Of a stretch of DNA of 43,570 nucleotides, positions 4,031 to 27,574 are shown piece by piece. Source of the stretch: an uncultured Anaerolineae bacterium. Its GTDB lineage: Bacteria; Chloroflexota; Anaerolineae; Aggregatilineales; UBA2796. A model generated the notes under the pieces. It was not told the DNA's origin and ran no database searches. It saw nothing but the letters and a program-made list of their open reading frames with translations. Both the position numbers and the translations under genes were made by a program. The DNA lies in NCBI GenBank assembly GCA_938005675.1, contig CALKXH010000010.1:1-43570 (forward strand), given 5' to 3'. How positions within the stretch are numbered: position 1 is the first letter of the stretch; each line of letters starts with the position of its first letter.

Positions 4031-4498
4031 GGCGGCGAGGGCGCGCCGAACGACCTCAGCGTGGAAAGGCGAGAGCGGCGGCAGCGCCTCCTGCGGGGCG
4101 AACCAGCGATAGTCCAGCAGCTCGCGGCTGAGGCGCACGGGCTGATCGGGCGCGCTCAGGCGGCACAAGTAGCCCACATCGAGGTGATGCCGCCACAAGT
4201 GCGACGGGGCGATGATGAGCGGCTGCAGCACTTCCACGCGCAGGGCGGTCTCTTCGAGCAATTCGCGGCGGACGGTCTGATCGGGCGTCTCGCCGCGGTT
4301 CAGGTTGCCGCCGGGCAAGCCCCACGGCGTCTGGGGATGAAAGAGATGCTCCACGAGCAGCAGCCGCCCCTCCGCATCGAAGACGGCGCCGACTGCGCCG
4401 ACCGTCACACGAGCGTTGAAGGGGCGCAGCAGGCGCTGAGGCAGGTAGATCAGCCACGGCGCGCGCCGCAGCAAGTGGGCGAGTCGGCGCGCGGTCAT
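4013..4498 (-). CDS. Nudix hydrolase
   Basis: 161 residues with a canonical Nudix box G-x5-E-x7-R-E-x-x-E-E-x-x (G-N-L-N-R-G-E then R-R-E-L-L-E-E-T), preceded by W-G-L-P-G. The substrate subgroup cannot be told. The start codon at 4498 shares one base with the stop codon of the UBL-FHA gene (TGATG), so it is the third gene of the leftward EccC-like operon by arrangement. A role in secretion is not evident; it may simply be a passenger. Its 3' end overlaps the convergent epimerase gene. Confidence 0.85.
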   Translation of the reverse strand: MTARRLAHLLRRAPWLIYLPQRLLRPFNARVTVGAVGAVFDAEGRLLLVEHLFHPQTPWGLPGGNLNRGETPDQTVRRELLEETALRVEVLQPLIIAPSHLWRHHLDVGYLCRLSAPDQPVRLSRELLDYRWFAPQEALPPLSPFHAEVVRRALAALAILD

Positions 4499-5196
4499 CA
4501 GTTAGGGTTCGGCTCGATCGGCGGGTTGAAGCTCTGCGGGTTGGACACGCTTTGAGTCAGCCCGCTGCGCAAGCCGAAGGTCAAGGTGATCTGCCCGATG
4601 CGCAGCTTATCGCCTGGGTACATCACGCGCTTATCGCCCACGCGCACCAGCTCGCCATTCAGATAGGCGGGGTTATGTTCGGCGAGGCTCTCGATGTAGA
4701 ACTGCCCGCCCTCCTCGGTGAGGCGAGCGTGATAGCGCGAGACGCTCTTGGCGCCCTCGTAGCCCTCCAAATTGACCGCCAACAGCTCGCGGCTGGCGGG
4801 ATTGCTGTGATCGGGGCGCCCGATGATGGCGGGCTGAAAGTCGATGTTGAAGATATCTCCGCGCGAGTCCTCGCGGAAGTAGGGGCGCTTATTGGTGCTG
4901 AAGAGGACGCGCGAGGCGCTGCCGCGCAAGGCTGTCTCGCGGCGGGGGGCGCGGCGCTCGCGGCTGAAGACCAGCCGAGCGCCCGTCCTGATGCCCTGCT
5001 GCTCGAGGGTCTTTTCAGGATCGAGCAGTTTGCCGCTGCTCTCGATGCGCAGGGCGTAGAGGGCATCCTCAGGCAGGTTGAATTCCTTGAGCGTCTCTTC
5101 GATCAAGGTGCGCACGGGCAGATTCTCGCGCACGGAGGCTTCCTGCTCAGGGTTATCGAATAAATCGGATGAGATAGTCACCACCAGACGAGCCAT
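4498..5196 (-). CDS. Ubiquitin-like (YukD/EsaB-type) plus FHA domain protein, T7SS-associated
   Basis: 232 residues. The ATG at 5196 is chosen because AAAGGA lies 8 nt upstream; a longer reading from 5226 lacks this. Residues 1-80 look like a ubiquitin-like beta-grasp domain: a beta start, L-I-E-E-T-L-K-E-F helix, L-L-D-P-E-K-T-L-E-Q-Q-G-I and G-A-R-L-V-F. This pattern is seen in YukD/EsaB and the N-terminus of EccD. Residues about 120-208 are an FHA domain with G-R (126-127), S-x-x-H in S-R-Y-H (153-156) and the N-x-x-Y-L-N-G loop (175-181), so phosphothreonine binding is plausible. A Gly/Arg linker joins them. It lies 71 nt downstream of the EccC-like gene in the same direction. FHA domains occur in EssC and in other T7SS parts, which supports a secretion role by inference. 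Confidence 0.75.
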   Translation of the reverse strand: MARLVVTISSDLFDNPEQEASVRENLPVRTLIEETLKEFNLPEDALYALRIESSGKLLDPEKTLEQQGIRTGARLVFSRERRAPRRETALRGSASRVLFSTNKRPYFREDSRGDIFNIDFQPAIIGRPDHSNPASRELLAVNLEGYEGAKSVSRYHARLTEEGGQFYIESLAEHNPAYLNGELVRVGDKRVMYPGDKLRIGQITLTFGLRSGLTQSVSNPQSFNPPIEPNPN

Positions 5197-5231
5197 TGAG
5201 TCGATCCTTTCTATGACAGATCGCAAAGGGT

Positions 5232-5267: not shown

Positions 5268-8200
5268 TTAATCGCCACTCTGAGGCTTGGCGGCGCCTTC
5301 GGGCGTCGTCGGGACGCCTTGAGCGCCGCTACCGCCGTTGCCGCCGGCTGCTTCGGCGGCGGCGCGTTTGCGCGCTTCCGCCTCCGCCTTGCGCCGATCA
5401 ATCTCCTCTTGGCTGAGCTTGACGGGCGTGGGCTTGGGCGCCACAGTAGCCGCCGCTTCGAGTTCTTTCTCCAGTTCCTCGATGCTCTTTTGGGCGCTCA
5501 CGGCGGCGGTGGCGGAGGCGGCGCGCTCCTGCTCTAGCTTCTTCAAGTCGACGTCGGGCGCTTGAGCGGCGCGACGCGCCAGCTCATCGGCGGTCACGGC
5601 GAGGCTTGCCGCCGCTGCCGCCAGCGAGGCCGCCACGGGCTGCATCGCCGCTTCTTGGCGCAGCTCGGGCACCAGATCGGCGAGCCACTGGGCGCGCGTC
5701 GGATACTTGGCGCAGATGCGCGCCACCCAGCGGTCGAGCGCCTCTTCCATCGTGGCGTCGCCGTCATCTTGCGGCGTGGCGACTTGCATCAGGATGGCGC
5801 GGTTGCTGCGCACGATGTAGCCGCGACCGGGCGGGAATTCCTCCGTGCTGGAGCGCAAGCGCGCGCCCAGCGAGTTCGCCGATTCGCCGCTATCCAAGCC
5901 GAGCGCGAAGCGCGACTCCAGGGCGCGGCGCAGGAAGTCGTCTTGCCCGCGCAGGATGCTGGACGAGCCGCACAGCACGGCGTGGAAGCCATCCGGACCG
6001 TACTTGTTCGCCATGACCGCCAGATCGCTGAGCAGGCTGCCGCGCCCGAAAGCGCTGCCGAAGTCGTCGTAGTTATCGGCGAGGAAGAACACCTCGCGGC
6101 GCGGATGCCCTTGGCGCGCCTCTTCGGGCGTCTCGAACTCGACGCGCAAGTTCGCCACCACTTGCGCCATCTCCTCAGGCGTGGAGACGGTGGCGACCAC
6201 GTGCGGCAAGTCGGCGAGGCTGTGTTTGCTGGTGCGCCCGCCGTAGCGGAAGAAGCGTTGGCGCAAGTCCACCAGCACCAACATGACCTGAGCGGGGTCG
6301 TAGAGGGCGGCGGTTGCCAATGCCCACGTGCGCAGAGTCGTGGTCTTGCCGCTGAGGGGCGGTCCGATGATGACGAAGTGCGGACCGCGCGCCTGCAGGT
6401 CGAAGGCGGCGGGCTCAAGGTTGCTATCCTCGATGCCCAGCAGCGTCTCGACGGCTGCGCCGTGCGGGCGCTCAGGCAGGACGGTGCTGAGCGGGATGAC
6501 CTTGCGCAGGATATCGATGCCGCTCGGACGCGGACGTCCCGCCCAAGCTTTCGCCATCAGCTCGACCAGCTGGGCGAGTTTCTTGGTGTCGTCCAGCTTG
6601 CGAACCTCTTCATCCTCCTTGCTGAGCGAGATCGGGACGGCGATCTGCATCTCCAGCGCCTGCTTGTTGCGCAGGGCGAAGCCGCGGCCAGGGTCTTGTG
6701 GCACGCCCTGCACGCGCCCGATGATGTTCATGTAGTCGGCGGCGTCGTTGAGCTTGAGGGCGAGGCGCTCGGTGAACAGGTTGAAGAGCTTGGTGGTGAA
6801 GACGCCCGATGAGTCTGCGGTGACCACGAAGTGGACGCCGTTGGCGCGCCCGTCGCGGATGACGCTGATCAGATCGGGCAGGAGCGGCTCGTAGTTCTCG
6901 CGGAACTCGGCGAAGTTATCGATCAGGATCAGCATGGCGGGGATGACGCGGTCGGGATTGGCGGCGTTGTAATCGAAGAGGCTATCGGCGCGCGCCTTGC
7001 TGAGGAGGTCGCGGCGGCGCTCGATCTCGCTGGCGGCGCGGCGCAGCAGGCGCTGGATGCGCTCATCCTCGCCGGAGTTGATGGTCGGCGCGCTGACGTG
7101 GGGCAGCTCGTTGAGGACGCTCAAGCCCTTGCCGCCCAAGTCCATGATGTAGATGTTCAGCTCTTCAGGCGAGTGGGTGGCAGCCAGCGCCATCACCAGC
7201 GTGCGCAGCATGAAGGTCTTGCCCATGCCAGAGGCGCCGATGACCACGACGTGCCCTTTGGTCAGATCGAGCTGGAGCGCCATTTGAGCCGCTTCCAGCG
7301 GGTTATCGACCAAGCCGATGGTGGCGCGCATGGCGTCTTTCTTCCAATCGATGCCGCGCCAAGCGCCGCGCCCCTCGCGCCAATCGATCAGGGCGGGGCT
7401 GAGCGGCAAGAGCGGATTGGGCTTGCGCTCGCCCTCAAGGGCAGTCTGATCGAGGGTCAGGCGGGTCGGCAACGGATCGGGATAGGGCTTGGGCTGCGGC
7501 TTGACGTCCTCATTCTCCTCCGCCAAGCGCTTCATGACGGCGGTCAGGATGTTGGAGAGGAACAGCTCATCGGCACTATCTTTATCCTCGCGCAGGTGCT
7601 TGAGGAAGTCCGGCAGCGCGCCGTTGTACGGACCGCCGGCGCGCGCCACTTGCATCAGTTCGAGGTTATCGTTGCCGACCTGCAAGAACGCCCGACCGGG
7701 GATGTTATTGGGCAGGAAGGCGGCGTCGGCGCGTTTGAGCAGCTCTTTGGAGTCGTCGCCGGTCTCCACGCGCAGGCAGATGCGCCACTTGATGTTGGAG
7801 CGCATTTGATCGGTCACCACGCCGGCGGGGCGCTGCGTGGCGAGGATCAGGCAGACGCCCAGCGCGCGTCCCAAGCGCGTGATCGAGTCGAGGCTGCCCT
7901 TGAACTCCGGGTTCTCCTTGACCATCTCGGCGAATTCGTCCACCACCACGAACAGGAAGGGGAACGGCTCGCGGCGCTCGTGCAGATTGCGCTTGCGGTA
8001 ATCGACGATGTGCTTGGTCTGCGTGACGGCGAGCAGGGCGGAGCGCCGATTCATCTCGGCTTTCATGGCGGTGAAGGTGCGCGCGCCGGCCAAACCTTGC
8101 AAGTTGGTGACGATATCGACTGCGTGCGGCAAGCCCTTGAAGGGATCGAAGGCGCTGCCGCCTTTGTAGTCGGCTAGGATGAAGTTGACCACGCTCGGAT

Positions 8201-11200
8201 CGTAGCGCATGGCCAGACCTGCCACCACGGTCAGCAGCAGCTCGGACTTGCCCGAGCCGGTCGTGCCGGCGACCATGCCATGCACGCCGTCGATCTGCTG
8301 ATCGAAGATCAGCGAGCGGACTTTGTTGCCCGTCACCAAGCCGACCGGCGCCTTGAGCCACTCGGCTTTTTCCGGCTTGCGGCTCTCGCGCCACCACTCG
8401 AGGATCGGGAAGTCCATGACCGACTTGTACTCGCGCTTATCGAGCAGCTCGAAGAGCTCTGTCAGCGAGAGCTGGCGCACCAGATCGACGCTCTGCGGCA
8501 CGGGACGCTCGCCCCAAGCGGCTTTCATGCCCTCCACAATGCGCGAGAGCTTCTTCAGGACGTCCAGCCCGTGCTCTGCCTCCGCTTTCGTGACCGTGAT
8601 CGGCTGGGCAACTTGCATCTCCAGCGGCTCGTTCTCCACAGGCACGAAGCCGCGCCCGGGGATATCGGGCAGGTTGGGCATGTTGCGCCCGACGATCATC
8701 GAGTACTCGGTCGAGTCGGTCAGCTTGAAGGCGAGGCGCATGGCGAACATGTTGTAGAGCTTGCTGGGGACTGAGCCGATCTGCTGCGTGGTGACGAGGA
8801 AGTGGATGCCGTTGGCGCGGGCATCGCGCACGATGGCGGTCAGTTCGGGCAGCAGATTCTCGTAGTTCTCGCGGAACTCGGCGAAGTTATCGATCAGCAC
8901 CAAGATGGCGGGCAGCGCCTTATCGGGGTACTGGGTGTTGAAGATCGCCAAATCTTCGGCGCGCGCCTGACTGAGCAAGGCTTTGCGCTGCTCCAGCTCG
9001 TCCGAGAGGCGGCGCAGCAACGCCGAGACGCGGTCGTCCTCCGAGGGGTAGATCGAGCAGGCGACGTGCGGCAACTCCAGCAGCACATCCAGACCCTTGC
9101 CGCCGAAGTCCATCATGTAGATGTGCAGCTCTTTGGGCGAGTGCGTGGCAGCCAGCGCCATCGCCACTGTGCGCAGCAGGACGGTCTTGCCCGTGCCGCT
9201 GGCGCCCACGGCGATCACGTGCCCGCGATTGAAGTTCAGGGTCAGCGGCAGCTGCTCGGCGCGGGCGGGATTGTCGATCAAGCCGACCGCTGCGCGCATC
9301 CCGTTGCGCGCCCAATCGACGCCCGTCCATGCGCCGCGTCCCGCCGCCCAATCGGACATGGCGCGGCTGAGCGGCATGAGCGGGTTATCCTCAAAGTCCT
9401 TTTCAAGGCGCTGCTGATCGAGGGTGAGCAGGCGCGGCAGCGGATCGGGATAGGGCTTTTTCTGCTCCAGCACGTCCGGGTTGGTCTGCAGCATATGGCG
9501 CATCATGTAGGAGAGGACGTCGGTCAGGGCAGGGACATCGCCGCTGTATTTATCCTGCAGATAGTCGGGCAGGGGTCCGCTGTACGGACCGCCGGCGCGC
9601 GCCACCTGCATCAGCTCGATGTTATCGTTGCCGACCTGAATGTAGCCGCGCCCCGGCACGGTGTTGGGCAGGTAGGCGGCGTCTTCGCGCTTGAGCAACT
9701 CGCGCGAGTCGGCGCCGGTCTCCACGCGCAGGCAGACGCGCCACTTCATGTTGGAGCGCATCTGATCGGTCACCACGCCGGCGGGGCGCTGCGTGGCGAG
9801 GATCAGGAACAAGCCCAGCGCGCGCCCCAAGCGCGTGATCGAGTCGAGGTTGCCCTTGAACTCCGGGTTCTCCTTGACCATCTCGGCGAACTCGTCCACG
9901 ATCACGAACAGGAAGGGGAAGGGTTCGCGCGTCTCGTGCAGATTCTTTTGGCGGTACTCCACGATGTGCTTGGTGGAGGTGGCGGCGAGCAGGGCGGAGC
10001 GGCGGTTCATCTCGGCGCGCATGGCGGTGAAGGTGCGCGCGCCCGCCATGCCCTGCAGGTTGGTGACGATATCGACCGCGTGCGGCAATGCCTCCACCGG
10101 CGTGAAGGCGCTGCCGCCTTTGTAGTCGGCTAGGATGAAGTTGACCACGCTGGGATCGTAGCGCATCGCGACGCCCGCCACCAGCGTGAGCAGCAGCTCG
10201 GACTTGCCCGAACCGGTCGTGCCGGCGACCATGCCATGCACGCCATCGACGTTCTGATCGAAGACGATGGAGCGGACTTTGTTGCCCGTCACCAAGCCGA
10301 TGGGCGCTTTGATCCACTCAGCTTTGCTGGCTTTGCGGCTCTCGCGCCACCACTCGAGGATCGGGAAGTCCATGACGGTTTTGTACTCGCGCTTATCGAG
10401 CAGCTCGAAGAGCTCCATCAGCGAGAGCGCCTTGACCAAGTCGACGCTCTGTGGGCGCGGACGCTCGCCCCAGGCTTTGTTCATCCGCTCCACCAGCAGC
10501 GCCAATTTCTTGGTGTTATCCAAGCCCGCCTGCTCATCCTCGACGGTCAGGCTGATGGGCAGGGCGATCTGCATTTCGAGGGCTTGTCCGTCGTGCTGGA
10601 TGAAGCCGCGCCCGCCGATCTCCGGCAGCTGCGAGCCGACGCGCCCGACCACGCCCTGATACTCGCTGACGTCGGGCAGGCGGAAGGTCAGGCGCTCGGT
10701 GATCATGTTGAACATCTTGTTGGGGATGGCGTTGGGCTGCTGCGAGGTGAAGATGAAGTACACGCCGTTGGCGCGCCCGTCGCGCACGTAGGTGGTCAGT
10801 TCGGGCAGCAGCGCCTCGTACGACTCGCGCAGCTCCATGAAGTTATCGATCACCACCAGCATGGCGGGGACGGGCTTGTGCGGATGGGCGACGTTGTATT
10901 CGGCGATGTTATCGGTGCGGGTCTGGCTGAGCAACGCCTTGCGCTGTTCCAGCTCGTCCTGAATGCGGCGCATGATGGCGGTGACGCGCTCATCTTGGCT
11001 GGGCAGGGCGTAAGAGGCGACGTGCGGCAAGTCGCGCACCACGTCCAAGCCCTTGCCGCCGAAGTCGAGGATGTAGATGTGCAGCTCGGCGGGCGAGTGG
11101 GTGGCTGCCAGCGAGGTGATCAAGGTGCGCAGCAGGAAGGTCTTGCCCCAGCCGCTGCCGCCGAAGACGGCGACATGCCCGCGATTGAAGTCGAGGATGA

Positions 11201-13811
11201 GCGGCAGCTGCTCGGCGTTGCCCGGGTTATCGATCAAGCCGATGCGGGCGCGCATGGCGCGTTCGCGCCAGTCGATTGGGTTGCGCCAATCGGGCTCATC
11301 CTCTTCCATCCAGTCGATCACGGCGCCGTTGAGCGGCAGATTCGGGTTGGGCTTGATGTCGCCGGGCAGGCGCTCCATATCCAGCGAGAGCTTGACGGGC
11401 AGCGGGTCGGGCCACGGCTTCTTCTGCGGCACGACGTCATCGTTTTCGGCGGCGAGCTGCGCCATGCGCGCGATCAGCAGGTCGGAGATGGTCGGCACTT
11501 CGGCGGCGGCGCTGCGCGCTGCGACGGCGGCGACATCGACCATGCCGGACAGATTCGACCGCGAGCGCCAGATGACGGGCGGCTCAGCCGTCTCTTGGTC
11601 GCCGGTGAAGGGCGCGCCCGCCCGCGCCAGCTGCAGCAGCTCGACGTTCTCGTTGCCGACCTGCAAGTAGCCGCGTCCGGGGATGTTGTTGGGCAGGAAG
11701 GCGGCGTCGGAGCGCTTGAGCAGCTCGCGGGAGTCTTCAGCCGTCTCCACGCGCAGGCAGATGCGCCACTTGATGTTGGAGCGCATCTGATCGGTCACCA
11801 CGCCGGCGGGTCGTTGCGTGGCGAGGATCAGGCTGACGCCCAGCGCGCGTCCCAAGCGCGTGATCGAGTCGAGGTAGCCCTTGAAATCGGGGTTCTCCTT
11901 GACCATCTCGGCGAACTCGTCCACGATGATGAAGAGGAAGGGGAACGGCTCGCGCGTCTCGTGCAGATTTTTCTGGCGGTAGTGGACGATGTGCTTGGTG
12001 TTGGTATCCGCCAGCATTTTGCTGCGGCGGTTCATCTCGGCTTTGGTGGCGGTGAAGGTGCGCACGCCCGCCAAGCCGTTCAAGCTGCTGACCACGTCCA
12101 CGGCGTGCGGCAGGGGCTTGAAGGGATCGAAGGCGGTGCCGCCTTTGTAGTCTGCCAGCACGAAGTTGACCACGCTGGGATCGTAGCGCATCGCCAAGCC
12201 GACCACGATGGTGATCAGCAGCTCGGATTTGCCCGAACCGGTCGTGCCGGCGATCATGCCGTGAACGCCGTCAATATCGGCGGCGTAGGTCAGCGAGCGG
12301 ACTTTGTTGCCCGCCATCAAGCCGATGGGCACGCGCAGCCACTCAGCTTTTTCGGGCTTGCGGCTTTCGCGCCACCATTGCAGCAGCGGGAAGGCGTTGG
12401 GGCGGTCGTAGTTTTTATTATCGAGGATGCTGAAGAGTTCTAGCAGGTTGACGGAGGTGGCGACGTCGGCGCCGAAGGTGGCGCGCACCATCTTAGAAGC
12501 CAGCTTGCGGGCGAAGCGGTCGTCGGCGTTGCGCTCGCTGATGGCATCGGCGATGCCGTCGTAGCGCATCGAGTTCAGCCCGATCTCGGCGTAGCGGAAC
12601 ATGGGCGTCTCATCGACGACGTCCAGCTCGATGATGGCGCGGCATTCGCTGGGGATTTGATCGCGCTCGGGCACCACGAAGATGACCGCCGCGCCCAATT
12701 GCGCCCCGCGCGTGAGCAGGAGCGCCACGGCTGCCTCGGTGCTGAGGCTGTGCAGGGGCGAGTCGGCGGCTTGGGAGAGCGCATCGACGACCACGACCAT
12801 GAAGGGCAAGGTCACATCGCCGGCGTCTTCATCTTCGGCGCGCAGGGCGCGGCGTTGCAGCTCATTTTGGAGCAAATCCCAGATGCGGCGGGTCTTGCGC
12901 GGCTCAAAGGCGAGCAGATCGCCCTTGCCGGAGTCGTTGCGGCTGGTGTTGCAGTGCGGCAGCCAGCGCGCCCAATCCCAATCTTTTTGGCGGTCGGCGG
13001 CGCCGATGACGTACAGGCGCGTATCGTTGGGCGAGTGGAAAGCCGTGTAGCTGACCAGCATAGCGCGCACGAAATCGCTGGTGCGGGCGGTATCGGCGCC
13101 CGCCACGCCGATGGCATAGCGCCCGACCGACGGAATCTTGATGCCCAGCGCCGTGCCTTTGCTATCCAACGAGCTGGGATCGTCCTCGCCCAAGCGCGGG
13201 CGCAAGGTGATGGTGATCGGGATGTTGTGGACGATCAGCGAGTCTTCTGCTAGGCGCTTGGCGTCGGGCATTTGAGGGGCGGTGGCATCCTGCGTATCGA
13301 TGCGGTAGACGACCGTCGAGGGCATTGAGCCCATGCCGAGGCGGATGGCGCCGAAGTCATTATCGTCGACGCGGCGCTCCCACAGCCGCGATTCGTCGGC
13401 GCCCTCGCCGCCGCCGACCATCGCCATGATCGTATCCATATCCGGGTTGTTGTGGATGTAGAAGGCGCGCTGCTTATCGTGCGATGCCATCATCTCGCGG
13501 CGCATCTCGATCAGCAGGCGGGCGTATGCCTCGCGGCGCTCTTTATCGATGCGCCGATCGCGCAGGTACTGGAAAACTGCCAGCACGCTGGTCGCCATGA
13601 CCGAGATCGCCATCGGCAAGACGAACAGCGCATTGCCGCCGCGCCCACCGCTGACCAGGACGTAGCCCAGAATGGTGATCAGCGGGATGGCGACCGTGAT
13701 GAGCAACTGCTGGGCGGAGGTGTTGGAGGGCGTGGGCGGTTGTGGGATATCGATCTCGCCAGAGGGCAGCTCTGGCTGAATACGGGGCGGACGGTTCACA
13801 TACTCAAGCAT
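5268..13811 (-). CDS. eccC: Giant EccC-like FtsK/SpoIIIE ATPase with seven P-loop domains (T7SS)
   Basis: 2847 residues; the ATG has GGGAGA 8 nt upstream. N-terminus: two membrane segments (about 35-54 and 61-80), then a stalk and a degenerate nucleotide-binding-like domain (about 225-410), as in EccC/EssC. Seven Walker A motifs follow: GTTGSGKS at 522, 1197 and 1849; GGSGWGKT 884; GASGTGKT 1536; GASGMGKT 2192; GPPLSGKT 2483. The three GTTGSGKS domains have Walker B with catalytic Glu (V-D-E at 630-632, 1305-1307, 1957-1959). The other four have D-N instead (989, 1641, 2298, 2579). So the order is D1-D2 three times, then D3; ordinary EccC/EssC carries one D1-D2-D3 set in about 1300-1500 residues. 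The C-terminus (2720-2847) is an Ala/Lys/Glu-rich coiled region. The family powers export of WXG100-type proteins; substrates are not in the window. Confidence 0.9.
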   Translation of the reverse strand: MLEYVNRPPRIQPELPSGEIDIPQPPTPSNTSAQQLLITVAIPLITILGYVLVSGGRGGNALFVLPMAISVMATSVLAVFQYLRDRRIDKERREAYARLLIEMRREMMASHDKQRAFYIHNNPDMDTIMAMVGGGEGADESRLWERRVDDNDFGAIRLGMGSMPSTVVYRIDTQDATAPQMPDAKRLAEDSLIVHNIPITITLRPRLGEDDPSSLDSKGTALGIKIPSVGRYAIGVAGADTARTSDFVRAMLVSYTAFHSPNDTRLYVIGAADRQKDWDWARWLPHCNTSRNDSGKGDLLAFEPRKTRRIWDLLQNELQRRALRAEDEDAGDVTLPFMVVVVDALSQAADSPLHSLSTEAAVALLLTRGAQLGAAVIFVVPERDQIPSECRAIIELDVVDETPMFRYAEIGLNSMRYDGIADAISERNADDRFARKLASKMVRATFGADVATSVNLLELFSILDNKNYDRPNAFPLLQWWRESRKPEKAEWLRVPIGLMAGNKVRSLTYAADIDGVHGMIAGTTGSGKSELLITIVVGLAMRYDPSVVNFVLADYKGGTAFDPFKPLPHAVDVVSSLNGLAGVRTFTATKAEMNRRSKMLADTNTKHIVHYRQKNLHETREPFPFLFIIVDEFAEMVKENPDFKGYLDSITRLGRALGVSLILATQRPAGVVTDQMRSNIKWRICLRVETAEDSRELLKRSDAAFLPNNIPGRGYLQVGNENVELLQLARAGAPFTGDQETAEPPVIWRSRSNLSGMVDVAAVAARSAAAEVPTISDLLIARMAQLAAENDDVVPQKKPWPDPLPVKLSLDMERLPGDIKPNPNLPLNGAVIDWMEEDEPDWRNPIDWRERAMRARIGLIDNPGNAEQLPLILDFNRGHVAVFGGSGWGKTFLLRTLITSLAATHSPAELHIYILDFGGKGLDVVRDLPHVASYALPSQDERVTAIMRRIQDELEQRKALLSQTRTDNIAEYNVAHPHKPVPAMLVVIDNFMELRESYEALLPELTTYVRDGRANGVYFIFTSQQPNAIPNKMFNMITERLTFRLPDVSEYQGVVGRVGSQLPEIGGRGFIQHDGQALEMQIALPISLTVEDEQAGLDNTKKLALLVERMNKAWGERPRPQSVDLVKALSLMELFELLDKREYKTVMDFPILEWWRESRKASKAEWIKAPIGLVTGNKVRSIVFDQNVDGVHGMVAGTTGSGKSELLLTLVAGVAMRYDPSVVNFILADYKGGSAFTPVEALPHAVDIVTNLQGMAGARTFTAMRAEMNRRSALLAATSTKHIVEYRQKNLHETREPFPFLFVIVDEFAEMVKENPEFKGNLDSITRLGRALGLFLILATQRPAGVVTDQMRSNMKWRVCLRVETGADSRELLKREDAAYLPNTVPGRGYIQVGNDNIELMQVARAGGPYSGPLPDYLQDKYSGDVPALTDVLSYMMRHMLQTNPDVLEQKKPYPDPLPRLLTLDQQRLEKDFEDNPLMPLSRAMSDWAAGRGAWTGVDWARNGMRAAVGLIDNPARAEQLPLTLNFNRGHVIAVGASGTGKTVLLRTVAMALAATHSPKELHIYMMDFGGKGLDVLLELPHVACSIYPSEDDRVSALLRRLSDELEQRKALLSQARAEDLAIFNTQYPDKALPAILVLIDNFAEFRENYENLLPELTAIVRDARANGIHFLVTTQQIGSVPSKLYNMFAMRLAFKLTDSTEYSMIVGRNMPNLPDIPGRGFVPVENEPLEMQVAQPITVTKAEAEHGLDVLKKLSRIVEGMKAAWGERPVPQSVDLVRQLSLTELFELLDKREYKSVMDFPILEWWRESRKPEKAEWLKAPVGLVTGNKVRSLIFDQQIDGVHGMVAGTTGSGKSELLLTVVAGLAMRYDPSVVNFILADYKGGSAFDPFKGLPHAVDIVTNLQGLAGARTFTAMKAEMNRRSALLAVTQTKHIVDYRKRNLHERREPFPFLFVVVDEFAEMVKENPEFKGSLDSITRLGRALGVCLILATQRPAGVVTDQMRSNIKWRICLRVETGDDSKELLKRADAAFLPNNIPGRAFLQVGNDNLELMQVARAGGPYNGALPDFLKHLREDKDSADELFLSNILTAVMKRLAEENEDVKPQPKPYPDPLPTRLTLDQTALEGERKPNPLLPLSPALIDWREGRGAWRGIDWKKDAMRATIGLVDNPLEAAQMALQLDLTKGHVVVIGASGMGKTFMLRTLVMALAATHSPEELNIYIMDLGGKGLSVLNELPHVSAPTINSGEDERIQRLLRRAASEIERRRDLLSKARADSLFDYNAANPDRVIPAMLILIDNFAEFRENYEPLLPDLISVIRDGRANGVHFVVTADSSGVFTTKLFNLFTERLALKLNDAADYMNIIGRVQGVPQDPGRGFALRNKQALEMQIAVPISLSKEDEEVRKLDDTKKLAQLVELMAKAWAGRPRPSGIDILRKVIPLSTVLPERPHGAAVETLLGIEDSNLEPAAFDLQARGPHFVIIGPPLSGKTTTLRTWALATAALYDPAQVMLVLVDLRQRFFRYGGRTSKHSLADLPHVVATVSTPEEMAQVVANLRVEFETPEEARQGHPRREVFFLADNYDDFGSAFGRGSLLSDLAVMANKYGPDGFHAVLCGSSSILRGQDDFLRRALESRFALGLDSGESANSLGARLRSSTEEFPPGRGYIVRSNRAILMQVATPQDDGDATMEEALDRWVARICAKYPTRAQWLADLVPELRQEAAMQPVAASLAAAAASLAVTADELARRAAQAPDVDLKKLEQERAASATAAVSAQKSIEELEKELEAAATVAPKPTPVKLSQEEIDRRKAEAEARKRAAAEAAGGNGGSGAQGVPTTPEGAAKPQSGD
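6504..8474 (-). repeat. EccC-like tandem repeat unit C (D1-D2)
   Basis: Residues about 1780-2436, opening with L-T-E-L-F-E-L-L-D-K-R-E-Y-K. It is followed by a single, diverged D3 domain (about 2437-2690), which has no partner copies. Confidence 0.8.
8475..10427 (-). repeat. EccC-like tandem repeat unit B (D1-D2)
   Basis: Residues about 1129-1779, opening with L-M-E-L-F-E-L-L-D-K-R-E-Y-K. The D1 Walker A motifs of units B and C are 652 residues apart, and the DNA match at 9764 is 1956 nt from that at 7808. Units B and C are the most alike, suggesting the more recent duplication. Confidence 0.8.
10428..12449 (-). repeat. EccC-like tandem repeat unit A (D1-D2)
   Basis: Residues about 455-1128. 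It opens with L-L-E-L-F-S-I-L-D-N-K-N-Y. The D1 Walker A of units A and B are 675 residues apart. The DNA copy gatcggtcaccacgccggcg occurs at 11789 here and recurs at 9764 and 7808. Confidence 0.8.
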
Positions 13812-13981: not shown

Positions 13982-14013
13982 GAGCGCAGCAGGTGGAGCG
14001 AGGTGAGGAAAGC

Positions 14014-15117
14014 ATGAAACGCTACTGTCCTAGAAGTGAGACGATCACGCCGATGTTCAGCGTGTGGGGGTCGGCGCGCATCTCGGAGGCGGGCGAGCTC
14101 TCGGTGATCTTCGATTACGGCGATTTCTTGGGCGATATCGAGATCACGCGCCTGATCCGCGTCATGAAGACGGGCGCGCTCTACGAGGCGCGGCGGCGCA
14201 TCAAGAACAAGCCTAAGCCGATCTTGATCAAGGTTGCCCACAACGGCTGCGAGGAGCTGCTCAAGCGCGAAGCCATCCTGATGGCGAAGCTGAACGAGTC
14301 AGGCGGGCATCCGATGCTGCCCGTCTTGCAGCCGCCCTACCTAGTGGGCGATGCTAACGTCAAGCAGCGCCCCTACGGCAAGGTCGCTTTCGGCAACGAG
14401 ATGAAGTATTACATCGTCTACGCGCACACTGAGGGCGAGTTCCTGCGCGATGCGCTCTTGAAGAACCCGCAGCCGTGGTACCTGCACGCCGCCTGGCTGA
14501 CCATCAGCGTCGCCGCCGCCGTCGCTTTCATTCACGGCAAGGCGCAACACTTGGTGCTGAATCTGAGCCCGGATACGATCCTGATCCGCTACGACCGCGA
14601 CGGCATCCCGCGCCCGCTGCTGATGGACTTGAGCCTCGCCGCGCCGCCCACCGACATCAACTTCGATGAGCTAGAGCGCTACAGCATGGCGGCTTACATC
14701 GCCCCGGAGCTGCTGATCGACCGCGAAAAAGGGCAGTACGGCGCCCAGACCGACGTCTATGGCTTGGGCGTGCTGCTCTACGAGATGCTCAAAGGGCGCC
14801 CGCCTTATATCTACCGCCTGCGCCGCCCTGAGGACGTGCGCCAAGACGTGCGCCTGCTGCCCATCCCGCCGCTGGATCGCACCGATCTGAGCAGCGATAT
14901 CAACATGATCGTGACTCAGGCGATTGATAAATCGCCCATGCGCCGTCAGAAAGATGTGCGCACCTTCGCTAAGGAGCTGGTCGCCAAATTTGGCGAGGTG
15001 CCGCCTGAGCGCAAGGGACGGCGCATCCCGCCGCAGTACCTCGCGGCAGGGGCGGCGGTGGTGCTGCTGATCGTCGGCTGGCTGCTCTTCGTGGCGACCT
15101 TGCAAGCCGGCGCCTAG
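14014..15117 (+). CDS. Membrane-anchored pseudokinase, EssB/YukC-like candidate
   Basis: 367 residues from the ATG at 14014, with GGTGAGGA just upstream. The protein-kinase fold is recognisable: beta3 Lys (I-L-I-K73), helix-C Glu86, A-P-E (230-232) and D-V-Y-G-L-G (247-252). Catalytic residues are lost: the H-R-D-x-K-P-x-N loop reads V-L-N-L-S-P-D-T (181-188), so Asp becomes Asn183, Lys becomes Ser185 and Asn becomes Thr188. DFG reads D-L-S (205-207). Phosphotransfer is therefore unlikely, though nucleotide binding is possible. A single membrane helix (about 343-362) leaves only about five residues beyond it. In Firmicutes T7SS, EssB/YukC is a membrane pseudokinase that works with EssC; the divergent position next to the EccC-like gene suggests the same here. 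EssB's extracytoplasmic domain is absent. Alternative: an unrelated regulatory pseudokinase. Confidence 0.8.
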   Translation: MKRYCPRSETITPMFSVWGSARISEAGELSVIFDYGDFLGDIEITRLIRVMKTGALYEARRRIKNKPKPILIKVAHNGCEELLKREAILMAKLNESGGHPMLPVLQPPYLVGDANVKQRPYGKVAFGNEMKYYIVYAHTEGEFLRDALLKNPQPWYLHAAWLTISVAAAVAFIHGKAQHLVLNLSPDTILIRYDRDGIPRPLLMDLSLAAPPTDINFDELERYSMAAYIAPELLIDREKGQYGAQTDVYGLGVLLYEMLKGRPPYIYRLRRPEDVRQDVRLLPIPPLDRTDLSSDINMIVTQAIDKSPMRRQKDVRTFAKELVAKFGEVPPERKGRRIPPQYLAAGAAVVLLIVGWLLFVATLQAGA

Positions 15118-27184: not shown

Positions 27185-27192
27185 CCCTTGAG

Positions 27193-27574
27193 TGGAGATG
27201 CCGGGCATCGCAGCCCGGGTCCGAAGGAGCTCTCCTGCATACGTCTACAAGCGTAGTCGAGCGGTTAGAGTCTCGCTGCTTCGGCTCAGCTCGACAAGAG
27301 CCTGCGCAGCCAACCGATGATCTTAGGCGCTATTTATCGGTGTCATAACGCAGCAGTTCGGTTTTGGTCACGCCTACGGCTGCTCCGTCCGAACTACGTA
27401 GCAGGTAGACGGCTAACCCGCAGGTTAGCAGCTCTGCTTTAGCTGATTAGGCAGCCATTGCGAGAGCAGGTGCAGTGCGAGTGTTCGCATCTACTGGTTT
27501 TGCACGGTTTACGGGTTCATGCGCCCGGCTTGCAGTATGCGCTCAACCTCCCCCGTCGAGCCTAGTTCATCCCC
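27193..27574 (-). ncRNA. ssrA: Transfer-messenger RNA (tmRNA)
   Basis: About 382 nt. The 5' GGGGATG (27568-27574) pairs with 3' CATCTCC (27194-27200). This gives a 7-bp acceptor stem with a G3-U pair, the alanyl-tRNA synthetase identity element. The conserved 5' motif C-T-C-G-A-C-G-G-G-G follows the acceptor. The tag frame (27447-27488) most likely encodes ANTRTAPALAMAA followed by TAA; the first codon is a best guess, with GCG after GTAGAT. CCA is not encoded, so it must be added. The T-arm is unusual: a 5-6 bp stem closes a loop reading CTGCGATG instead of TTCRANT. tmRNA rescues stalled ribosomes with SmpB, which is not in the window. Promoter and terminator both flank it. Confidence 0.85.

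Follow-up and report, generated by a model that had tools for sequence, protein, structure and literature searches.

A dead kinase, EssB/YukC, is part of the type VII secretion system known as T7SSb, and a locus from an uncultured Anaerolineae bacterium raises the question of whether a second such protein serves type VII secretion in another phylum and, if it does, whether the two are kin. The window, that is, the whole stretch of 43,570 nucleotides analysed here, contains on its plus strand a real open reading frame that begins with an ATG at 14014, ends with a stop at 15117 and encodes a product of 367 amino acids. The first-pass annotation of this DNA had taken the product for a tail-anchored pseudokinase beside EccC and for a counterpart of EssB/YukC without the outer domain. 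The question bears on why T7SSb needs a dead kinase, and the Chloroflexota pseudokinase could reveal which parts of the secretion machine are essential.

Fold, membrane anchor and active site of the protein

A GAGG-type ribosome-binding site, recognized by eye, precedes the ATG (14000..14009, plus strand). The Pfam Pkinase profile matches the product with E=1.1e-10 and matches 35/35 family members (E<=1). An AlphaFold2 model built on 35 sequences (mean pLDDT 88.6, pTM 0.85) displays a two-lobe kinase fold over about residues 33-331, followed by a long helix, residues 340-366, at the very end. The domain with both its lobes, delimited by the model and by alignment to PknB 6b2q_C, corresponds to 14110..15006 (plus strand), and the predicted membrane helix, which basic residues precede and no outer domain follows, to 15031..15111 (plus strand); in the sequence the C-terminal hydrophobic stretch comprises residues 340-367. 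Such a helix, with basic residues before it and a tail of 0-11 residues after it, ends 32/32 complete family sequences, namely the 35 minus three cut by contig ends. The single C-terminal membrane helix, the missing outer domain and the EssB/YukC-like order of pseudokinase and then membrane segment, all of them claimed in the first-pass annotation, are accordingly borne out by the model and the family sequences. Under a strict script criterion the terminal helix stands alone in 28/32, the same segment is split in two of the 32, and a weak inner hydrophobic stretch also passes in the window protein and in that of locus L087. This second stretch, residues 155-173 of the window protein, is modelled as an inner C-lobe helix of the kinase.

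The N-terminal 32 residues (14014..14109, plus strand) resemble, when set against the family sequences, a remnant of a zinc-ribbon-like segment (CxxC...WCxxxxC). A putative zinc-ribbon-like N-terminus with four cysteines is kept in 28/35 members and is gone from the focal genus and some of its neighbours.

The catalytic loop, equivalent to HRDxKxxN and placed at residues 181-188 (14554..14577, plus strand) by the 35-member alignment, is degenerate. In the window protein the HRD aspartate is replaced by N183, the loop lysine by Ser185 and the loop asparagine by Thr188, and the DFG motif reads D-L-S. These substitutions are as first described, with one correction: the catalytic lysine said to be lost is that of the HRDxK loop, and not the VAIK lysine, K73 (14230..14232, plus strand), which is invariant in 35/35 members and in 6/6 more. 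Equally invariant in both sets are the alphaC glutamate E86 (14269..14271, plus strand) and the DFG aspartate itself, D205 (14626..14628, plus strand); an Asp at 247 is also constant among the 35 aligned members. The HRD aspartate has been replaced in 35/35 (by Asn in 20, Cys in 12, Gly in 2 and Ser in 1), the loop lysine survives in 1/35 and the loop asparagine in 0/35, and the glycine loop is degenerate throughout the 35. The six extra members, which come from families elsewhere in the phylum, share the same active-site pattern, with the HRD aspartate in 0/6. Given its Pfam match, these residues, the predicted two-lobe fold and the fold comparisons given below, the protein encoded at 14014..15117 (plus strand) is a tail-anchored pseudokinase of the Hanks-type Ser/Thr kinase superfamily.

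Purifying selection acts on the gene: in comparison with four congeneric species dN/dS is 0.09-0.12, a rough estimate since dS is near 1. A recent pseudogene is ruled out by this ratio of about 0.1 together with the single clade that the members form in the tree described below.

The eccC locus and its partners across Chloroflexota

The divergent neighbour of the pseudokinase gene, 202 bp away, is eccC (5268..13811, minus strand). Pfam, a motif scan and profiles identify its product as an EccC-like FtsK/SpoIIIE ATPase of 2847 aa that has seven Walker A motifs, RPPR at residues 7-10, hydrophobic segments soon after and no FHA domain, at the N-terminus or elsewhere. Its ATPase 1-2 module occurs in three copies, after which comes ATPase 3, making seven modules instead of three. 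In further families of the phylum (loci L120-L125), EccC likewise reaches 2871-2958 aa and contains 5-7 Walker A motifs; at most other loci it measures about 1410-1570 aa, and the one such protein inspected has three of these motifs. The window EccC exceeds the cut-offs of TIGR03928, TIGR03924 and TIGR03925 with scores that its repeats inflate. A three-module relative reaches 741.9 bits against the EssC profile (cut-off 778.4), 496.8 against EccCa (cut-off 509.15) and 354.1 against EccCb (cut-off 346.55); the TIGR03928 match of a 1418-aa relative begins at profile position 210, and the EccC of locus L108 matches the EccC 4nh0 with E=2.9e-98.

Downstream of eccC lies a gene (4498..5226, minus strand; likely start ATG at 5196) that, by Pfam and fold, encodes a ubiquitin-like (YukD-type) domain fused to an FHA domain, a protein referred to here as UBL-FHA. 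Pfam detects FHA at 5.2e-9 and YukD at 2e-5 (25.7 bits, under the 27-bit cut-off), and fold comparison of the UBL-FHA model gives Z 15.0 for FHA and Z 12.5 for the ubiquitin-like domain. A Gly-Arg and a Ser-Arg pair are invariant in 24/24 UBL-FHA sequences, with a His and an Asn at 90% or more; we take the invariant pairs to be the FHA phosphothreonine site. By eye, 6/24 contain a second FHA domain (L093, L095, L098, L101, L102 and L103), and these six resemble EssC in possessing two. Elsewhere in the window a tmRNA gene occupies 27192-27574 (minus strand), with the tag ANTRTAPALAMAA.

The distribution of the pseudokinase was followed in 61 genomes of its own order, in 301 genomes of the phylum and in a scan of GTDB contigs that yielded 34 named loci. 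The named loci and the genomes overlap, so their counts are not independent, and genes of the relatives were called with a home-made ORF picker that may miss small ones. We take 33/34 named loci to belong to Chloroflexota or groups within it; one is labelled Bacteroidetes. The protein occurs in 16/61 own-order genomes (E<=4.4e-71), two weak, ordinary-kinase matches among the 18 at E<=1e-15 having been left out, and eccC adjoins it in 14/16, the exceptions being G013 and G056, which have eccC elsewhere. Among the named loci, eccC lies within 700 bp of the pseudokinase gene in 27/34 and inside the fetched flank in 29/34; L087, L105 and L107 are cut by contig ends, and L089 and L090 have no eccC nearby. 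Within the phylum sample, 11/301 genomes encode the pseudokinase, the same 11 encode the cognate EccC type (E<=1e-100) and the genes are adjacent in 11/11; 28 further genomes have a distant EccC only (best 2.5e-45) and no pseudokinase at E<=1e-40. The UBL-FHA gene is present in 23/34 named loci, and WXG100-like open reading frames, some over the Pfam WXG100 cut-off, lie within 5 kb in 22/34. The pseudokinase thus belongs, as a conserved component, to a type VII secretion locus found in Chloroflexota. The proposed linkage to eccC holds in relatives, and the loss of linkage that had been named as a ground for dropping the idea is not what they display.

We infer that the pseudokinase is a core membrane subunit of the secretion machine, which would best explain these associations. 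Two observations count against membership: the separation of the gene from eccC in L089 and L090, and the position of the WXG100 genes of the focal genome, which exceed the cut-off at nine places, all on other contigs and none at the pseudokinase locus. A small number of WXG100 proteins has been recorded from Chloroflexi (PMC10765036 and PMC3935865). One site in the focal genome is G000:C1:28852-29731 (L140:9853-10494), and WXG100 domains within longer frames (331-432 aa) on contigs C72, C46, C59 and C12 are candidate substrates. Profiles for EccB and EccD exceed their cut-offs in 0/21 genomes, with weaker matches in 1 and 4, respectively, and with no positive control genome; the EsaA profile exceeds its cut-off in 0/21, with weak matches in 3/21, and in the B. 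subtilis control it does so.

A candidate docking role and a possible phospho-switch

According to PMC9600267, EssB of T7SSb attaches through its pseudokinase domain to the FHA domains carried by the ATPase, and the two domains co-purify; PMC13037476 ascribes to Oka et al. 2025 a core, resolved by cryo-EM, that consists of YukC, YukB and YukD. The reading that we favour, and hold to be probable if far from secure, is that the Chloroflexota pseudokinase was recruited independently and acts as a tail-anchored scaffold, docking UBL-FHA and thereby the ATPase, in an EssB-like role. The C-terminal anchor would hold the cytoplasmic pseudokinase domain at the membrane as a docking platform, to which the neighbouring UBL-FHA protein would bind through its FHA domain. 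With the ubiquitin-like domain of the latter presumably seated on the EccC ATPase, the pseudokinase would gather, and perhaps gate, the ATPase ring at the membrane. The docking state may be governed by nucleotide that is bound but not used for phosphotransfer; such binding may occur because the Lys-Glu-Asp triad of the ATP site is kept and the catalytic base is gone. The protein would then do what EssB/YukC does in T7SSb, having reached that role from a different lineage within the kinase superfamily. As regards role, the original counterpart claim is made plausible by the FHA and ubiquitin-like modules that the locus encodes as well. A contact with the N-terminal stalk of EccC is not the likeliest one, because FHA, the type of domain on which EssB docks, sits here on the ubiquitin-like protein. 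If another phylum brought a second, seemingly unrelated dead kinase into the same position, with the FHA and ubiquitin-like modules united in one small soluble protein, the docking step would be a shared necessity, and docking could be studied with two small proteins rather than a large membrane complex.

Two features count against a scaffold of this kind. The missing outer domain, together with EccB, EccD and EsaA below their cut-offs, leaves the crossing of the envelope unaccounted for. Furthermore, the phosphothreonine-site residues kept in 24/24 FHA domains hint that the FHA domain of UBL-FHA may bind something phosphorylated, and not simply the pseudokinase.

A phospho-switch like that of mycobacterial MviN and FhaA, in which an active Ser/Thr kinase places a phosphothreonine on the pseudokinase for the FHA domain of UBL-FHA to bind, toggling the secretion ATPase, would account for these conserved residues; we consider it unlikely, though deserving of serious attention. 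Apparently active Ser/Thr kinases, recognized by a regular expression for an HRD-type loop and a DFG-type motif, are encoded in 14/40 fetched loci, a count that is suggestive at most, and the fold search with the UBL-FHA model also retrieves 3oun, the FHA domain of FhaA bound to the Rv3910 domain (Z 13.4). In the precedent, as recounted in PMC12599244, PknB phosphorylates the MviN pseudokinase, which then recruits FhaA; a pseudokinase is paired with an FHA protein there as well. However, a universal phosphosite was sought in the pseudokinase alignment and no invariant Ser/Thr column was found, the best two (12 and 53) not being universal, and in 26/40 fetched loci, some on short contigs, no such kinase was found. 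MviN also differs in being a peptidoglycan synthesis protein whose pseudokinase lacks the ATP-site residues, and its motifs in the table of PMC12599244, VALT / Lsidhpsr / Y--, depart from the Chloroflexota pattern.

Ancestry and relation to described systems

That the protein is a true EssB/YukC orthologue minus its outer domain would fit the common domain order and topology, the same kind of locus partner and a fold superfamily that is also shared (PMC9600267). Profile searches largely refute this reading, which we regard as very improbable: the YukC profile PF10140 matches 0/35 family members (E<=1), 0/61 own-order genomes and 0/301 phylum genomes, with a positive B. subtilis control, and orthology is rejected on these counts. 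The best sequence and fold matches are instead PknB-type kinases. A search of solved structures with the family profile returns PknB first (E=1.5e-21), and residues 33-328 of the model align to PknB 6b2q_C with Z 28.7 and rmsd 2.1 over 251 aligned residues (VIA-align). PknB-type and other kinases fill the best rows of the fold alignment, and no EssB/YukC chain is among the best 50 rows of either fold search, an absence that is no evidence that the folds differ, as the fold alignment covered the 1000 chains ranked highest by Foldseek. The kinase domain here has about 300 residues and keeps the VAIK lysine and the DFG aspartate, whereas EssB is tabulated in PMC12599244 as residues 9-211 with the differing motifs LDMR / Ytfvlapd / TRG, and YukC is without ATP binding according to a portion of PMC9600267. 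A plasmid search with a Chloroflexota EccC returned no EssC locus among the best 60 of 690 records.

What the protein shares with EssB/YukC is thus a pseudokinase followed by a membrane helix, a T7SS locus, a partner ATPase and a proposed docking role; kinship, the other half of the counterpart claim, fails with PF10140, and the outer domain and the state of the ATP site also separate the two. In T7SSb the FHA domains belong to the ATPase, whereas here FHA belongs to the ubiquitin-like protein, and the phosphothreonine-site residues that UBL-FHA keeps are not kept in the FHA domains of EssC.

Closeness to active Ser/Thr kinases with recent catalytic loss had been foreseen as a result that would tell against the EssB/YukC reading. 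The closeness is real and the recency is not. A tree, drawn midpoint-rooted from one search and containing one long row, covers 14 other kinases and 23 members, 18 of which come from the aligned 35 and five from the additional six. A 100/100 branch of length 1.4 sets the members apart from the 14, so that catalytic loss, judged from these sequences, looks old and single. PknB-type kinases, although nearest by sequence and fold, differ from the pseudokinase in its lost catalytic loop and in the membrane helix at its very end.

The VAIK lysine, alphaC glutamate and DFG aspartate, invariant while the HRD aspartate is gone, could alternatively mark a new enzyme on the kinase fold that transfers, e.g., AMP or glutamate; SelO and SidJ are tabulated in PMC12599244 with the lysine and the DFG aspartate and without HRD. 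Yet the metal-binding asparagine of the catalytic loop is lost in 35/35 and the glycine loop is degenerate, and we deem such an activity a slim prospect. That a kinase gene lies beside eccC by chance in kinase-rich genomes (15 kinase matches in the window's own genome) is scarcely credible and is rejected, as adjacency and co-occurrence are conserved (27/34 loci; 11/11 genomes).

The nearest published analogue, on the description in the main text of a 2024 survey of T7SS subtypes (Garrett et al. 2024, PMC11217815), is TshM of T7SSh. It, too, is kinase-like, has its one membrane helix at the C-terminus, lacks an outer domain and adjoins a ubiquitin-like protein and an EccC/EssC-type ATPase without N-terminal FHA. 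Unlike the present protein, TshM is found in Bacillota, where it is 'not confidently predicted'; T7SSh also includes an EspG-type protein, and its ubiquitin-like protein stands alone (PMC11217815). TscD of T7SSc and TsdD of T7SSd are also membrane components of kinase type, but both carry large C-terminal regions past the kinase, and the active site of TscD is conserved (PMC11217815). The survey places T7SSc-j, with their kinase-type components, in Bacillota and Actinomycetota, and the string 'Chloroflex' is absent from its main text; among the titles and abstract openings listed for type VII secretion, EccC or WXG100 in Chloroflexi or Chloroflexota we found no description of the pseudokinase-eccC locus. 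The locus widens the described variety of T7SS past Actinomycetota and Bacillota.

Seen against T7SSb, the core modules are regrouped in Chloroflexota: the ATPase is without FHA, the ubiquitin-like protein is fused to it, and the pseudokinase is tail-anchored. The bridge between the two T7SS types drawn in the first-pass annotation stands as a description of this mixed architecture and does not amount to evidence for an evolutionary intermediate. We tentatively propose, as a possibility short of an expectation, that a separate Chloroflexota T7SS subtype assembled anew, out of different components, the pseudokinase-FHA-UBL-ATPase core known from T7SSb. EssB would be replaced by a tail-anchored pseudokinase that was recruited independently and could still bind nucleotide, and the FHA domain would have passed from the ATPase onto the ubiquitin-like protein. 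If this is true, pseudokinase-FHA docking is a convergent and hence essential principle, here possibly under nucleotide control.

Two sister T7SS loci, WXG100-eccC clusters without the pseudokinase, encode tail-anchored kinases that keep the loop aspartate, at L074 10689-11819 (minus strand; HRDIKPGN) and at L068 2828-3853 (minus strand; HGDLKPAH). In the tree both fall among the other kinases and not with the pseudokinase, which suggests that tail-anchored kinases have been recruited to T7SS loci more than once.
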